In this document: positions 31,089 to 48,141 of the stretch, piece by piece
Layout: the number at the start of each line of letters is the position of its first letter
Position numbering within the stretch: the stretch's first letter is position 1
Origin: Tropicimonas isoalkanivorans
GTDB lineage: Bacteria > Pseudomonadota > Alphaproteobacteria > Rhodobacterales > Rhodobacteraceae
Direction of reading: 5' to 3'
DNA length: 50,916 nucleotides
Assembly: GCF_900112335.1 (NCBI RefSeq)
Contig: NZ_FOLG01000022.1
Coordinates: 1-50,916 of the forward strand
Notes under the pieces: generated by a model
What the model saw: the letters and a program-made list of their open reading frames with translations, nothing else
Told to the model about the DNA's origin: nothing
The model's database searches: none
Program-made: the position numbers and the translations under genes

Positions 31089-31619
31089 TCACGTCGTTTG
31101 CTGCTGGACCTCCAACGCGACCGGAACGGTATTCGCCACGATGTCGCGGAGCGGGCAGTGGGTGTCTGAAGCCGTCCGGAGCATCTCGATCTGGTCCCTT
31201 GGTGCGTCGGACACCAGACGGACCTTTACGCGAAGCGCCTCAAACCCCGGCCGGACGCTATCGTCCACCGCCAGGAACCCGCGCAGATCTATATCCCCTT
31301 CAACCTCGACCTCGATCTCCTCTAGGGGAATGTCCATCGCGGTTGCGTAGGCACGGTACGTCATTGCTTGGCACGTCCCGATGGACGCCAGGACAAGTTC
31401 CACCGGGCTCGGCCCGGCGTTATGACCTCCCAACGCTTCCGAAAAGTCTGCTGTCAGTTTGTGATCGCGAATTTTTGCTTCGGTGCGGAAACCTTCCGCC
31501 GACGTACAAGCCGATCTGAAGGTCACCTTGCCCTTCTCGGGGTCGGCGCGAATGGCGTCTTGAGTGCCCAGTATGATGGATTTCAGATCGTTGTCTGAGG
31601 TTCTGGTCGCGAGTGTCAT
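31089..31619 (-). CDS. OsmC/Ohr family protein
   Basis: The 176-aa protein belongs to the OsmC superfamily, thiol-dependent peroxidases for organic hydroperoxides. The two redox cysteines are C83 in SIGTCQAMTYRAYA and C155 in DTHCPLRDIV. GPSPVELVLASIGT matches the family core. ATG 31619 follows GAGAGGGGGAAA, and the frame upstream to 31754 has no good site. Base composition and codon choice (ATA, TCA, AGA) are noticeably less GC-biased than in neighbours, a hint of transfer. Its 3' end faces the GST-like gene across 244 bp that hold no gene I can support. Confidence 0.88.
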   Translation of the reverse strand: MTLATRTSDNDLKSIILGTQDAIRADPEKGKVTFRSACTSAEGFRTEAKIRDHKLTADFSEALGGHNAGPSPVELVLASIGTCQAMTYRAYATAMDIPLEEIEVEVEGDIDLRGFLAVDDSVRPGFEALRVKVRLVSDAPRDQIEMLRTASDTHCPLRDIVANTVPVALEVQQQTT

Positions 31620-32140
31620 GACGATTTCCCCCTCTCGACCGATGACACCAAGCGCCGTCCCGAGACGAACTGTGACGCGCAGACAGGACGACCAAAGTGC
31701 CATTGGCCGCTGTTGTTTCGATGCGAGAAGTATACGCCGAAGGGGACGTTGCACCCATGACGGCCGTCAACCGGTTCTGCTTTTCGGGCCAACCATCCCG
31801 CGAAGCCGGAGCAAGCTGCAAGCACCTGGAGTAACTGCCCGGGGAAATACGATTTCAGGCCGCGATGGCAGAGAGGCAGTCATCCGGCCTAAACCGTCAG
31901 ATGACCGCAAAGCTGGCATGGCCGCCTCGCACCGTGTTTGCTCCGGACGTCCGAAATTAGGGCGTCGAGGCCGGCTATAGATCTCGTCCCGGGATATTTC
32001 ATCCCACGGTTCGGTCTGGCCCCACGCGCCGGGAAAATCTTGCCAAATCGTTACTACGCCTCCCTAAGTCACTGATTTTCTTTGTTGTAGGTCCTGTCTC
32101 ACACGTGGGACGCCCCCCGGCGCCAAAGAAACCGCCCCAA
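31620..32140. other. Long non-coding spacer between osmC-like gene and rpoC end
   Basis: About 520 bp with lower GC than the surroundings. Its right end borders the rpoC terminator, and its left end should hold the promoter of the OsmC-family gene. Open frames here have no ribosome sites or recognisable products, and I find no tRNA, repeat or clear structured RNA. It may hold an eroded gene. Confidence 0.4.
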
Positions 32141-32197: not shown

Positions 32198-36445
<4,248 letters not shown>

Positions 36446-36488
36446 GATGTGTCCTTTCGAAGCACAGACGTTCGGCAATCTATTATTC

Positions 36489-36512
36489 GGCGACCCGGAA
36501 ATCGGGCCCGCC
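36489..36512 (-). promoter_or_regulatory. Hairpin ahead of rpoC
   Basis: In the 81-bp spacer between the sulfotransferase stop and the rpoC start, an imperfect stem pairs ggcgggcccg with cgggtcgcc around a short loop (36489-36512). It could affect processing or translation of rpoC mRNA. It lacks a T run and is unlikely to be a full terminator. Confidence 0.4.
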
Positions 36513-36526
36513 AAGGGATTACGACG

Positions 36527-37407
36527 TTAAGTTGCAGCGACCGCCTGAGGGCGTTTCTTCGCGAGTTTCGATTTCCGCCGCGCACCGGCCTTTCCGGGCT
36601 TTGCGCCCGAAGGCTGTCCTCTGGCCCCGACCCTGCTTTCTGCAAGTTTACCGGACAGGATGCAGTGGTTGCGCACGATCCGCCTGTAAGAGGCGATATC
36701 GGCCTGCAGGGCGATCTGGCGGCGAAGACTTTCATCCCGTTCGCGCGCCTTGGACACGATCGATTCGTTGTACTCTTCGACAAGCCCGGTCAGCACGGCC
36801 TGGTCGGCATCCTTGATGTCCAGACCGAGTGCACCGAACAGTTTGCCGAACGCCTCCAGCGAACTGAATAGCTCCTCGTAGCTCACGACCGTGATCGGCC
36901 TTCCAGCGCGGAGGCACTCAAGTGTCTTCGAGACGCTGTTGTTCCACTCTCGGATCGCGGTCTTCGCCGACCTATTCCAGCGATCGTCCGCATCCGCCCT
37001 GCGGGCTTCGTAGCTCTCGGTCACCGAGATCGGGTTGCGGACGATATAGACCACTCTAATCCCCGGAAACCGGTCGAACAGGTAGTCGTATGTCAGACCG
37101 AGCGCCGGAACCTTGTCGCCGATGAACCGGGCGCGGTCATAGGCCGCCCCGACATCGTCGTACATATTCTCGAACCGTGCCTTCCCGATCCGCTCCGGAA
37201 GCGGCGCAGCATCACCCGCGTCCCGCTCCGAAAGATCGGAAAGGAACTTTTCCTTCTCAAAATCCTCGACCTCAATCGTCCCTTTCCGGAACTTCTGCAG
37301 GTAGCGTTCACTCCCGAGAAAGATATCCGGATGGGCGTTCAACGCCTTGGCCAGAGCTGTGGTTCCGCTTCGCGCGCATCCCCCCGCAACGAGGAATGAC
37401 TTATCGA

Positions 37408-37411
<4 letters not shown>
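36527..37411 (-). CDS. PAPS-dependent sulfotransferase inserted between rpoB and rpoC
   Basis: The 294-aa protein has the sulfotransferase fold: a 5'-phosphosulfate loop [11 protein letters not shown] (10-20) at the start and the 3'-phosphate site [16 protein letters not shown] with R125 and S133. It would move sulfate from PAPS to an unknown acceptor. The last ~45 residues are rich in Lys/Arg ([16 protein letters not shown]), an unusual tail. Its ATG overlaps the rpoB stop (ATGA), so it is translated from the rpoBC mRNA. Codon choice is much less biased than in rpoB or rpoC, which suggests later acquisition. Acceptor could be a polysaccharide or small molecule. No other sulfation genes lie in the window. 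Confidence 0.9.
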
Positions 37412-41544
<4,133 letters not shown>

Positions 41545-41640
41545 GTGGGTTTTTGAACCTTTCGTCTGTTGCGGATCGCGCATGCCGTCGGGGCTCGGCT
41601 GCGCGCCGCTCACGAATGAAGGGGGCCAGGTTCCATTCCC

Positions 41641-41780: not shown

Positions 41781-42161
<381 letters not shown>

Positions 42162-44249: not shown

Positions 44250-45479
44250 TTACCGCAGCCGTCGGAGCAGATCGAGCGACGGCTGGCCGGTGACCGGCAG
44301 GCCCTGGCTCCGCTGGTAAGCGGAAATGGCGGCCTCGGTATTGCCACCGATCACGCCATCGGTCCCTTGCGTGTCGAAGCCTTTGGCGGTGAGCCTCTGC
44401 TGCAACTCCTTCCGGTCGTCGATACTCATCCCCCGTGCGTCAGGAGGAAAGCCCGCCTGGATGGGCGGGCGGCCGATGAGCCGGTCCGAGAGATGCCCCA
44501 CGCCGAGCCCGTAGTTCTCCGCATTGTTGTAGCGCAGGATCACGTTGAAGTTGCGGTAAGTGATGAAGGCCGGGCCATTTGCGCCCTGTGGCATCAGGAT
44601 TGCGGCGCTTCCATAGTCCGGCACCGGCCGTCCACTGACATCCGTCACGCCCATCGTCGCCCAGCTTGACGCGCTGCGGGCGTTGCCCCGCCCGGTGAGG
44701 CCGGTGGAGAAGCCTGCGGGCAGGCGGACCTCCATGCCCCATGGCTGACCCTGCCGCCAGCCGTTGCGTTTCAGGTAGGATGCCGTGGACGCCAGCGCGT
44801 CGGCCGGGTTGTCCGACCAGATGTCTCGCCGTCCGTCGCCAGTGAAGTCCACCGCGAAGGCCTCGAAAGACGTCGGGATGAACTGGGTGTGGCCCATCGC
44901 ACCGGCCCAACTTCCCGTCATCCGCTCCGGCGTGATGTCCCCGCGTTGAAGGATGCGCAGCGCGGCCATGAGCTGCTTTTCCATGAAGGCACCGCGCCGG
45001 CCGTCGAAGGAGAGTGTCGAGAGCGAGGAAATGACCGGGATGTCGCCTCTGCGCGTGCCGTATTTGCTCTCCAGCCCCCAGATCGCGGCAACCACCTGCT
45101 GGTCAACGCCATACTGCGCCTCGATGGCCGCGAGGGTGGAGCCGTACTGCCGCATCGCGGCCTTGCCCATGCGCACCCGCTCGTCGGAGGCGGCGATCGC
45201 CAGGTAATCTTCGAGGCTGCGAGTGAATTCCGTCTGGTTGCGGTCCTTTTCGATCACTTCGGGCAGGTAGCCCACATTGCGGAACGCCCGGTCAAGCGTT
45301 GCCTGAGAAATGCCGCGAGATGCGGCGCGCGATTTGAAGCTCACCACCCAGGCATCGAACGCGGGGTTGGGGACGGCGCGCACGCGGGTCACCTGCGGCG
45401 CGGTGCCCGTTCCGCCACCGGCACAGGCAGCGAGCGTGGCGAGAACGCCGAACGAAGCGGCGCGTCTGGTGATCGTCAT
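44250..45479 (-). CDS. Lytic murein transglycosylase (MltB-like) with peptidoglycan-binding domain
   Basis: The 409-aa lipoprotein cleaves glycan strands, leaving anhydro-muramic ends. A signal peptide with twin arginines ends at a lipobox cysteine (LAACAGGG, C19). The SLT_2 catalytic domain (about 38-335) has the acid E137 in AIWGLESKYG, then GAMGHTQFIPTSF and YLKRNGW. The C-terminal 60 residues (DRKELQQRLTAKGFDTQGTDGVIG) form a PG_binding_1 domain. I start at ATG 45479. MQDKS twelve codons upstream is an alternative. Divergent from the ankyrin gene. Confidence 0.93.
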   Translation of the reverse strand: MTITRRAASFGVLATLAACAGGGTGTAPQVTRVRAVPNPAFDAWVVSFKSRAASRGISQATLDRAFRNVGYLPEVIEKDRNQTEFTRSLEDYLAIAASDERVRMGKAAMRQYGSTLAAIEAQYGVDQQVVAAIWGLESKYGTRRGDIPVISSLSTLSFDGRRGAFMEKQLMAALRILQRGDITPERMTGSWAGAMGHTQFIPTSFEAFAVDFTGDGRRDIWSDNPADALASTASYLKRNGWRQGQPWGMEVRLPAGFSTGLTGRGNARSASSWATMGVTDVSGRPVPDYGSAAILMPQGANGPAFITYRNFNVILRYNNAENYGLGVGHLSDRLIGRPPIQAGFPPDARGMSIDDRKELQQRLTAKGFDTQGTDGVIGGNTEAAISAYQRSQGLPVTGQPSLDLLRRLR

Positions 45480-45684
45480 GGGCGTTGTCCTGCTCGTATT
45501 GCTTTTGTCCTGCATAGCCGACACCGGCTGGTCGGCAAAGCGCCGCGAGGGGACATAAGCAGGAAGCCACCAAGCGCCGCGGCCGTGAAGGTGAAAGGGA
45601 CCCGGCATTTTCCGATTGGAGAGCGCCGGAGTCCCGGATTCGTGGTATGGTCCTGACCTAAGGTCAATCGGCGCGGAGGTGGCC

Positions 45685-46470
45685 ATGTTGAGGACGCACG
45701 CTCGTATTTCATGGCGAACAGTCCCACTGTTCGGCATCCTGCTGGCAGGCAGCGCAGCGACGGCCGGCCCCCTGCACGACGCCGTTCGGATGGGCGACCG
45801 GGCGGCAGTATCGGAGGCGGTAGCCAATACCGACGATCTGGATGAGACCGACTTCATTATCGGCACGCCGCTCCACGCCGCCGTTGCGGAAGGCCATGCC
45901 GACATCGCCCGCCTTTTGATTGAAACTGGCGCCGACGTGAATGCTGTCAGCGAAATCAATGGCAAGACGGCCCTGCACCTTGCTGCCGAACTGGGCGACT
46001 TCGACACGGTTCGCCTTCTGCTGGAGAACGAAGCGGATGTCGCGGCCCGGGACAAGACCGGCCTTGCCGCCATCCACCATGCGACGGTGGCCGGGCATCC
46101 GGCGATCGTTACGGCGCTTCTGAACGCCGGGGTGGAGGTCGACACTCGCGAATTTGCCGAGAACATGACGCCGCTTATGATCGCGAGCCTTGTGGGCGAT
46201 CATGAGTTGGTCGAACTGCTTGTGGATGGCGGTGCCGATATCGAGGCAGAGAGCGGGAACGGCCGGACGCCATTCTACTACGCAGCATCCTGGGAATCCT
46301 ACATCAATGTCGGCGGGGATGCCTTGTTACGGTATCTCGCGAACCTCGGGGTGGACATGTCGCCGGAGGATGAATCGGGCCTCACGCCGCTGACGTGGGC
46401 GATGGCAAGGAATATGCCGACGTATCGCGAGATCGTCGAAGTCTTGATAGACTTGGGCGTGGAGCGCTGA
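45685..46470 (+). CDS. Exported ankyrin-repeat protein
   Basis: The 261-aa protein has a signal peptide (PLFGILLAGSAATAG, cleavage near residue 29) and about six ankyrin repeats filling the rest: GTPLHAAVAEGHADIARLLIETGADVNA, KTALHLAAELGDFDTVRLLLENEADVAA, AIHHATVAGHPAIVTALLNAG, TPLMIASLVGDHELVELLVDGGADI and two weaker ones. These modules bind other proteins, and an exported location is typical of periplasmic ankyrin proteins. ATG 45685 follows GCGGAGGT. No catalase or other known partner gene is adjacent. Function unknown. Confidence 0.85.
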   Translation: MLRTHARISWRTVPLFGILLAGSAATAGPLHDAVRMGDRAAVSEAVANTDDLDETDFIIGTPLHAAVAEGHADIARLLIETGADVNAVSEINGKTALHLAAELGDFDTVRLLLENEADVAARDKTGLAAIHHATVAGHPAIVTALLNAGVEVDTREFAENMTPLMIASLVGDHELVELLVDGGADIEAESGNGRTPFYYAASWESYINVGGDALLRYLANLGVDMSPEDESGLTPLTWAMARNMPTYREIVEVLIDLGVER

Positions 46471-46577
46471 CCGTGCCTTGGGCCGCCGGGGCGCCACGCA
46501 GCCTCCGAAAGAATAAGACACCGCCAGATTGGGGCAGGATCTTCTTGCGTTTGCTGTACCGGGATTCCGGCGGCGGG

Positions 46578-46687
46578 CTACTGCGCCGTGACGTTGGCCA
46601 CGTCGACGGTGACGCTCGGTCACATGGTGGAGCGCAGGGACACCTTCAGCATGGAGGTGCCCTTGGCGCCCAAGAGCTTGGCCCGAG
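46578..46687 (-). pseudogene. rplA: Decayed duplicate of the rplA 3' end
   Basis: Bases 46580-46687 match the last coding bases of intact rplA (48249-48356) with about nine mismatches in 108 by eye, no gaps. Read on the minus strand it gives SRAKLLGAKGTSMLKVSLRSTM, a TGA in frame, then [13 protein letters not shown] and a TAG. The similarity stops at the stop codon on one side and abruptly at 46687 on the other. It has no start, so it is a remnant, 1,669 bp from the true gene and on the opposite side of the RTX gene. Confidence 0.93.
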
Positions 46688-46848
46688 ACGCTGACGTCTG
46701 CCGCCTCCGATCATGCCTGGCGTTGATGGCTGTCAATGCGAGCGAAGGCGCCGAGGTTTAGTCTCGCGCCAGCGATTTGACGGGGTAGGAGCGCCCGAAG
46801 GTCTTAAGGTGGAGTGACGCCTGCCCCAGAACATCACGGGAGGCGGCC

Positions 46849-48141
46849 ATGAATTACATCTATGGAACGTGGGGCCCCGATTGGCTCCAAGGCACAGCCA
46901 CTGCGGATTACATACGCGGCTTTGGTGGCGACGACATTATCTGGGCCAGAGGTGGATACGATATGGTCCGGGGTGACGGTGGCGATGATCTCATCTTCGG
47001 CGAAGGGGCCGACGACGAACTCAGGGGCGGCGTTGGAGACGATACCGTCTATGGGGGCCTGGGACATGACACGCTGATCGGTGGCGGGGGCAACGATCTG
47101 CTGGTCGGCGAAGACGGTAAAGACAAACTGGTCGGGAACGATGGCGACGATATGCTCGTCGGCGGCAACGGCAATGACACGCTGCGCGGCGGCACGGGCG
47201 ACGATCTTTTGTTCGGGGATGGCGGCGCGGACGTTATTCGCTTTGCCGGGGCGGGCAGCGACATCGCTGTGGGTGGCGCCGGGGACGACACAGTGATCTG
47301 GTCCCAGTCGGGTGACGGGGGCGACGGCCTGTGGGATTTTGCCATCGGTGGCAAGGCTGTTGCGCTGACCGGCTACGGGGGCAGCATCCGTGATGTCGCC
47401 GCGACCACGGAGCCCTGGGAACGGACACTCAATCCCGATTTCGCCTTCGGGGCCGATGACGGAACGGCGCCGGTCGTTTTCAATGCATCCGATGGGCTGA
47501 CTTTCGTGGCTGGAACCACGATGACAATCGAGGTGCTTTCGGGGCTGACCAACGCCTTCGGCGGAGTTGGCGAAGTGGACGGCGACGGCTACGTCGATTC
47601 GGGCTATCAGAAGAATGGCGACCCGGGCAGTAGCGGACGATTTTTCCCCAGCCTCTATACCCCTGAAGACTGGGATACCTTCCTGAACGCGCTCATGGGC
47701 ACGTTCACGGATGGCGACGGTGTGATCGTTGGGACGCCGTTCGAGGTTGGCAACGAAGCCACCGTCACCGTACCGGAGGGCGCAGAAGAGTTGCAGCTCG
47801 GCCTGAATGACGACTTCTTCAACGACAACACGGGCAGCCTCGAGGTGCGTGTGACCGGGACAGCCACACTGGAGACTGGCAGTCCCACGGTGCGCGGAGA
47901 TGACACCCTGCGTCTGACGGTCATCGACGAGGCCACGGCATCCGCGCTCGAGGAGGAGATACGATCCGAGTACGACGGCCTGAGTTTTACCCAGCTCGAC
48001 ACGATCGGCATGGTCATCGCGGAGTTCGAGTCGATCGAGATCCGCGTCGAGGGGCAGAAGGGGATCTATGCCGAATTGGACGATATGGACTTCACCGGAA
48101 CCCCGGTCGTAGACGATTTCGTCTTCGACTACCTGGCCTGA
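46849..48141 (+). CDS. RTX calcium-binding protein with lectin-like C-terminal domain
   Basis: The 430-aa protein starts with about 140 residues of RTX nonapeptide repeats (GGxGxDxU type: GFGGDDIIW, GDGGDDLIFG, GGGGNDLLVG, GGNGNDTLRG and others) that fold as a Ca2+ beta-roll. The C-terminal region (about 210-345) has VTVPEGAEELQLGLNDDFFNDNTGSLEVRVTG, resembling the Ca/galactose-binding PA-IL lectin type. Such proteins leave the cell by a type I secretion system with no N-terminal signal, and none is present, nor is an exporter nearby. GGGAGG precedes ATG 46849. It lies, alone, between rplA and its decayed 3' duplicate. Confidence 0.85.
   Translation: MNYIYGTWGPDWLQGTATADYIRGFGGDDIIWARGGYDMVRGDGGDDLIFGEGADDELRGGVGDDTVYGGLGHDTLIGGGGNDLLVGEDGKDKLVGNDGDDMLVGGNGNDTLRGGTGDDLLFGDGGADVIRFAGAGSDIAVGGAGDDTVIWSQSGDGGDGLWDFAIGGKAVALTGYGGSIRDVAATTEPWERTLNPDFAFGADDGTAPVVFNASDGLTFVAGTTMTIEVLSGLTNAFGGVGEVDGDGYVDSGYQKNGDPGSSGRFFPSLYTPEDWDTFLNALMGTFTDGDGVIVGTPFEVGNEATVTVPEGAEELQLGLNDDFFNDNTGSLEVRVTGTATLETGSPTVRGDDTLRLTVIDEATASALEEEIRSEYDGLSFTQLDTIGMVIAEFESIEIRVEGQKGIYAELDDMDFTGTPVVDDFVFDYLA

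Follow-up and report, generated by a model that had tools for sequence, protein, structure and literature searches.

A sulfotransferase gene between rpoB and rpoC in Tropicimonas isoalkanivorans marks a recurrent cargo site in Rhodobacteraceae

INTRODUCTION

The genes rpoB and rpoC encode two large subunits of one enzyme, RNA polymerase, and are usually regarded as inseparable neighbours. What, then, is a sulfotransferase gene doing between them? The gene lies in a 50,916-nucleotide stretch of Tropicimonas isoalkanivorans DNA (contig NZ_FOLG01000022.1, positions 1 to 50,916), which we refer to as the window. An earlier note on the window, made from the sequence alone, drew attention to the arrangement and raised a possible tie between the enzyme and the transcription machinery. 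None of the titles listed by our searches of open-access literature pointed to a gene inserted between the two, in Rhodobacteraceae or elsewhere. Here we ask what the inserted gene encodes, where its relatives sit, and whether the junction itself is unusual.

RESULTS

An intact sulfotransferase gene separates rpoB and rpoC

Sequence and Pfam matches gave the minus-strand order rplL (41781..42161), rpoB (37408..41544), sulfotransferase (ST; 36527..37411), and rpoC (32198..36445). The rplL gene precedes rpoB, as in the normal rplJL-rpoBC arrangement, and Pfam placed RNA polymerase domains in both RpoB and RpoC. We took the rpoB start at 41544 (MAQSF...), although a GTG in the same frame occurs farther upstream, at 41613. 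Positions 36446-37411 comprise the ST gene plus a spacer. The ORF reported there previously, with no strand given, is intact, encodes 294 residues, and carries the PAPS sulfotransferase family PF13469. As had been claimed, its ATG overlaps the rpoB TGA stop, in a 4-nt ATGA at 37408..37411 (minus strand), and rpoC restarts after 81 bp from a GTG at 36445 with a likely ribosome-binding site of its own, AAAGGA, at 36452..36457 (minus strand). The start codon of rpoC is ATG in the eight congeners, and the 81-bp ST-rpoC spacer (36446..36526, minus strand) is, by eye, unlike the rpoB-rpoC spacers of the seven of these eight that were read. No sigma-70-like promoter or terminator pattern was found within 36300-37600, and the ST-rpoC spacers of the window and of Loktanella salsilacus fold little better than shuffled sequences (z of -0.77 and -0.99).

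The weaker codon bias described for ST was borne out by a codon adaptation index (CAI) of 0.39, compared with 0.75 for rpoB and 0.73 for rpoC, which score against themselves, since the reference set consisted of rpoB, rpoC, rplL, and rplA. The ST value is close to that of the neighbouring OsmC gene (0.33), and ST therefore resembles an ordinary gene. Judged from its position, strong expression of ST is plausible, and the arrangement might, as the earlier note proposed, tune the beta to beta' ratio. The OsmC-like protein gene (31089-31754) follows rpoC, and rpsL, which usually occupies this place, was not observed; at the other side of the cluster, the rplJ-rplA interval (44250-48141) holds a lytic transglycosylase-like gene and, on the opposite strand, an RTX calcium-binding repeat gene.

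The insert encodes a likely PAPS-dependent enzyme

PF13469 (Sulfotransfer_3) matched ST with 59.5 bits, against a curated cutoff of 27, and was the sole Pfam family found. Both PAPS-binding motifs that had been recognized earlier are present on the minus strand: the GGxxRSGTTAL loop (residues 10-20; 37352..37384), which we take to bind the 5'-phosphosulfate, and a region containing R125 and S133 (residues 119-133; 37013..37057), which presumably binds the 3'-phosphate. Residues R14, S15, G16, T17, R125, and S133 are kept in all seven STs found at rpoB-rpoC junctions (see below). Across twelve homologues the invariant residues include G11, T17, E35, R36, G98, D99, K100, P102, S133, and R137, and R14 and R125 are nearly invariant. 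E35 and K100, invariant in all twelve, match the catalytic Glu and Lys in alignments with tyrosylprotein sulfotransferase (TPST) chains.

A PDB search using a profile of four junction homologues returned human TPST2 first (2e-13) and TPST1 second (1.5e-12), followed by a tick tyrosine sulfotransferase and then CurM. The AlphaFold model of ST gave a pLDDT of 82 and a pTM of 0.79, with pLDDT below 50 at residues 257-294. The top 31 Foldseek matches to this model were all sulfotransferases (best E value, 9e-8), and the predicted fold is that of a sulfotransferase, although TM-scores by query length were low (0.31-0.52). Tyrosylprotein sulfotransferases ranked first by E value, with modest TM-scores of about 0.4; a sulfotransferase from Alicyclobacillus (3rnl) gave a higher TM-score (0.52/0.60). 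Given the profile, fold, and conserved-residue evidence, ST is very likely an active PAPS enzyme. The enzyme family is a known one, and what is extraordinary is where the gene sits.

The Lys/Arg-rich C-terminal tail, earlier put at about 45 residues, spans 41 (residues 254-294; 36530..36652, minus strand), with 12 K/R and 1 D/E, in a low-confidence part of the model. It has no counterpart in length and charge among the other six junction homologues, whose last 45 residues contain 4-9 K/R and 4-7 D/E.

Homologues of ST occupy the junction in seven genera

A first-pass contig search with the single ST protein found no relative, and a second, using a two-row alignment, matched only L. salsilacus. 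The single-sequence query matched 6 of 100 genomes, its own included; the T. isoalkanivorans genome contains one ST match at E <= 0.001. A four-sequence ST profile matched 48 of 394 family genomes at 1e-6, with the four profile members topmost. At 1e-20 it matched 11 of 390 genomes from the order. Some genomes belong to both sets, and the family set contains approximately one genome per genus. In a class-wide draw of 220 genomes, the own genome was the sole match at 1e-20.

To establish where the homologues lie, we ran tblastn with RpoB and RpoC as queries. Among the 13 homologues with E <= 1e-20, seven sit between rpoB and rpoC, in T. isoalkanivorans (G000), L. salsilacus DSM 16199 (G014), G263, G397, G671, G647, and G468; the other six lie elsewhere (G182, G192, G548, G057, G053, and G051). 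Four of the seven junction STs built the profile, and G671, G647, and G468 were found by it without having contributed to it. All seven genomes belong to Rhodobacteraceae, and the search for the spread of the rpoB-ST-rpoC order within the family, which had been left to be mapped, thus yielded six further genomes, each from another genus. These six STs are 29-44% identical to that of the window, and the seven are 25-44% identical to one another; near the junction, the stretches of RpoB and RpoC that were read in the carriers are 86-88% and 93-96% identical to those of the window.

The ATGA overlap with rpoB recurs in four of the seven (G000, L. salsilacus, G397, and G671), and ST starts 1-4 nt past the rpoB stop in G263, G647, and G468; the G263 gene has an additional in-frame ATG 15 nt upstream. 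From the ST stop to the rpoC start there are 81 nt in G000, 65 in L. salsilacus, 18 in G263, 22 in G397, 1 in G671, 13 in G647, and 5 in G468.

The insertions are patchy within genera. One of nine genomes in the genus of the window carries it, and all eight congeners are empty, with gaps of 73-95 bp. The genus of L. salsilacus is represented by nine genomes, eight with a match and one with the insertion; the remaining seven have gaps of 68-95 bp. Empty near relatives are thereby established for the genera of two ST carriers. G263 and G397 are the sole members of their genera in the set surveyed, and the gap in G192 (L166), which shares a genus code with G647, measures 82 bp.

Immediately before rpoC, the empty spacer terminates with TTCAAGGA(A/T)TTGAA in six of the seven congeners read (the exception is G006) and in all seven from the Loktanella genus, and this ending is absent from both carriers, the window and L. 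salsilacus. Most congener spacers resemble one another and not the spacer of the carrier. By eye, many empty spacers (L017-L023 and L078-L084) contain a G+C-rich inverted repeat, not seen in the two carriers examined.

Flanking identity was followed in 90-bp steps. The flanks in the window are as near to its congeners as the congeners are to each other. For L. salsilacus, the resemblance to congeners extends over the final 360 bp of rpoB and approximately holds in rpoC; two steps 360-630 bp before the junction, in rpoB, fall 12-15 points below the mutual similarity of the congeners, and these showed no consistent excess similarity to other carriers. A donor-derived tract extending into rpoB or rpoC was also sought by sliding third-position identity and set aside, the flanks being near those of the congeners in both carriers tested; in these two, no donor tract, as a direct trace of homologous recombination, was seen. 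Since the flanks look native and the spacer differs, the foreign part appears, as far as this comparison resolves, to be only the interval from the rpoB stop to the rpoC start. The coding ends that border this interval are nearly invariant across both genera.

The rpoB-rpoC junction is a recurrent cargo site

We surveyed the junction in 140 Rhodobacteraceae genomes, those nearest to the RpoC of the window among the RpoC matches listed; this is not a random draw, and junctions were chosen without regard to gap size. Ten listed genomes fall outside the 140: G000 itself; G007, G038, and G120, with separately measured gaps of 74, 53, and 49 bp; G409, G177, G040, G140, and G256, in which the junction query matched as one stretch; and G282, at a contig edge. 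The rpoB-rpoC gap was 197-1740 bp in 17 of the 140 family genomes listed (12/100 and 5/40 by batch) and 43-128 bp in the other 123. Every one of the 17 large gaps contains, on the same strand as rpoB, an ORF 55 codons long or longer. In 12 of them the start of an ORF overlaps the rpoB stop by 4 nt; in nine of these (L106, L107, L112, L140, L142, L148, L152, L220, and L231) that ORF overlaps the rpoC start by 4 nt as well. Carriers have TGA as the rpoB stop codon in 12/17 cases, versus 43/123 among the others (Fisher p = 0.007).

The cargo is diverse. A Pfam scan of eight cargo proteins gave one family above the cutoff, the hexapeptide transferase repeat (L135), and no recombinase appeared among the Pfam matches of these eight or of ST. 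Several cargo proteins of 98-192 residues have, by eye, a start resembling a signal or lipoprotein peptide. Comparison of the 17 proteins revealed three homologous pairs: L131-L148 (8e-50), L189-L232 (2e-28), and L106-L112 (1e-6). L131 (G027) has a 1740-bp gap with several ORFs, among them one for a 294-residue protein without a Pfam match; its homologue, the 304-residue junction protein of L148 (G425), comes from a different genus. The homologous 63-codon ORFs of L189 (G306) and L232 (G103) look membrane-like by eye and end 1 nt before rpoC. A number of the smaller ORFs may have arisen recently or be chance open frames. Unrelated genes fill the same junction in several lineages, as would be expected of an insertion hot spot, and the rpoB-rpoC junction in Rhodobacteraceae is a recurrent cargo site with largely unrelated ORFs.

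Outside the family the junction looked closed. In a class draw, the junction query matched 61 of 72 genomes, two of which are Rhodobacteraceae. The 59 others comprised 49 in which it matched as two stretches 15-199 bp apart, nine in which it matched as one stretch, and G703, with a gap of 95 bp at a contig end. None of the 59 had a gap above 199 bp, compared with large gaps in 17/140 family genomes (Fisher p = 0.004, with family and class samples drawn differently); for gaps of at least 250 bp the counts were 14/140 and 0/59 (p = 0.012). The gaps of 187-199 bp in a few outside genomes could accommodate an ORF the size of the smallest cargo. The premise of the earlier note, that rpoB and rpoC are adjacent in nearly all bacteria, thus fits the 59 non-family genomes of the class that could be read and fails in about one in eight of the sampled Rhodobacteraceae. 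In G076, a 0.6-Mb genome, the junction query matched as one stretch (C1:113930-114319) within a 2712-residue open frame without a stop, and rpoB and rpoC look fused; rpoB-rpoC fusion is known for some Rickettsiales.

Other junctions of the cluster were measured in the family. The rplJ-rplL gap was 65-82 bp in 20/20 genomes and the rplK-rplA gap -3 to 6 bp in the 16/16 measured; rplL-rpoB gaps were 233-511 bp, and rplA-rplJ gaps were 239-2043 bp in 16 measured of 20. The last is variable and an operon boundary and so cannot be used as a closed control.

From these data we favour the reading that ST is horizontally acquired cargo, probably surface-modifying, in a Rhodobacteraceae junction that repeatedly holds cargo genes, and that it is read out with RNA polymerase; we consider this reasonably likely. 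Alternatively, insertions might arise at a background rate and persist neutrally for a while, the junction being a location without function. Patchy occurrence, diverse cargo, and a CAI as low as that of an ordinary gene would all fit such passive tolerance, and the control junctions are too few to establish an excess (0/20 insertions at rplJ-rplL against 17/140 at rpoB-rpoC, not significant at p = 0.13). We nonetheless think it unlikely: no insertion was seen at rplJ-rplL or at rplK-rplA (20 and 16 genomes), 9/17 cargo ORFs have double 4-nt overlaps, and the PAPS-site residues are kept in all seven junction STs despite their low mutual identity.

The junction sulfotransferases are scattered across the family

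A tree of rpoB 3' DNA was built with 163 rows, L131 having been dropped as too short. The seven ST carriers require seven changes on this tree and all 23 carriers require 22, in both cases no fewer than shuffled labels; the rows are mostly one per genus, so the tree shows scatter, not rate. Two trees were made of the STs themselves, both with long branches that weaken them, and the G051 homologue was kept out of them because its frame looked broken. In the 12-row tree, forcing a single junction clade costs 21 log units (p-AU = 0.031), and a five-member junction subgroup is not rejected (p = 0.127). In the 24-row tree, which includes distant sulfotransferases, the junction STs need three changes and are more clustered than shuffled labels (0/500 as low). 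One clade of junction STs is, on the 12-row tree, weakly rejected.

A single ancient origin is consequently not the reading that the trees favour (p-AU = 0.031; seven changes for seven carriers), and because of the patchiness, repeated arrival, or exchange from site to site, is simpler. An ancestral rpoB-ST-rpoC order, inherited vertically and then lost in almost all lineages, would account for the ATGA overlap common to 4/7 and the tight spacing, and for the clustering in the 24-row tree, whose starred branches are compatible with one origin. It would require losses in nearly every genus, however, and it sits poorly with the changes counted on the rpoB tree, with the weak rejection of a single clade, and with congener spacers that are mostly alike and unlike that of the carrier. 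We regard it as improbable, more so than passive tolerance.

Neighbours of non-junction homologues suggest a possible envelope substrate

Genes flanking five of the six non-junction homologues (all except G051) were scanned, giving ten neighbours, three of them without a Pfam match. The G548 homologue has as neighbours a TupA-like ATP-grasp protein and a protein matching Sulfotransfer_1. That of G192 lies beside another Sulfotransfer_1 match and a protein of the DAHP_synth_1 family, which is likely to be a KDO-8-phosphate synthase. Each of the two Sulfotransfer_1 matches scores slightly below the cutoff. The neighbour is an RgpF rhamnan synthesis protein in G053, an SIS plus CBS protein, likely an arabinose-5-phosphate isomerase, in G057, and a methyltransferase in G182. 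As we read them, 4/5 have an envelope- or polysaccharide-related neighbour. By analogy this suggests envelope glycans as the substrate, through guilt by association and across homologues 24-36% identical to the ST of the window. A peptide substrate is possible, because the nearest solved structures are protein-tyrosine sulfotransferases. We do not class ST as a TPST despite the aligned Glu and Lys.

The tie to the transcription machinery raised in the earlier note would have ST sulfate beta, beta', a factor associated with RNA polymerase, or a small molecule directed against the polymerase. Consistent with this are the position between rpoB and rpoC, the first rank of protein-tyrosine sulfotransferases in both profile and fold searches, the basic tail, and the recurrence of the ST subfamily at the junction (7/13 homologues, of which four of the seven built the profile). 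The wider survey did not uphold it: the junction holds other genes in 17/140 family genomes listed and is empty in 8/8 congeners, 6/13 homologues are elsewhere, with 4/5 of those examined near genes that we read as envelope-type, and the tail is not common to the junction STs. RNA polymerase as the substrate of ST, for which position and resemblance to tyrosine sulfotransferases are the sole support, was set aside, and we give any such role very little credence. An assembly or sequencing artefact is practically negligible as an explanation, for although assembly GCF_900112335.1 is a draft in 51 contigs, the ORFs are intact and the same rpoB-ST-rpoC order in six other assemblies, including that of L. 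salsilacus DSM 16199, makes a local assembly error, which the earlier note had wished to see checked, very unlikely.

DISCUSSION

The main finding is the place more than the enzyme: a junction that is normally closed admits cargo in a single bacterial family. If ST is acquired cargo, as we propose, donor DNA would enter by recombination, with the nearly invariant rpoB and rpoC ends possibly acting as short homology arms. Insertions that preserve translational coupling would then be tolerated, because beta and beta' synthesis would stay linked, and would be expressed along with RNA polymerase. With less certainty, we suggest that ST uses PAPS on an envelope polysaccharide or another surface molecule and not on RNA polymerase.

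A more specific version, which we offer tentatively, is that the junction acts as an exchange slot: acquired genes may be swapped in, with the native spacer replaced and stop-start overlaps at both ends, and their output may thereby be locked to the synthesis of RNA polymerase and, through it, to growth rate. Among the recognized cargo of such a slot, sulfotransferases would be the most frequent.

If Rhodobacteraceae repeatedly tolerate, or perhaps use, cargo at this junction, strict adjacency of rpoB and rpoC is a weaker constraint than has been assumed, and the family would provide many natural replicate experiments on the balance of beta to beta'. The junction is also a possible natural expression site coupled to growth, and a simple case in which to ask how an essential operon can take up new genes and still work.

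Several known systems resemble parts of this picture. In the conserved rpoBC cluster of Gammaproteobacteria and Bacilli, one study describes insertions at junctions other than rpoB-rpoC (PMC8046335). As at the ST locus, genes have been inserted into a conserved operon cluster, for example tusDCB between rpoBC and str and nrdHEF between rplL and rsmC; in contrast to Rhodobacteraceae, the events described there are at clade level and do not fill one junction repeatedly (PMC8046335). Work on overlapping gene pairs indicates that short overlaps couple translation tightly (PMC10666635). The same -4 nt stop-start overlaps occur at cargo boundaries, but here the cargo is tied to two subunits of one complex, where direct coupling would tie the subunits to each other.

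RaxST of Xanthomonas is described as a bacterial sulfotransferase that acts on tyrosine (PMC6637879). Unlike ST, it is encoded in a dedicated cluster, raxX-raxSTAB, and we liken the two by description, not by sequence. Human TPST1 and TPST2, CurM, and 3rnl share with ST the profile match, the predicted fold, and both PAPS-binding regions, and the two human enzymes have a Glu and a Lys that match E35 and K100. Identity to ST is low (18-22% in the best Foldseek alignments), and of all these enzymes ST alone is encoded between rpoB and rpoC.
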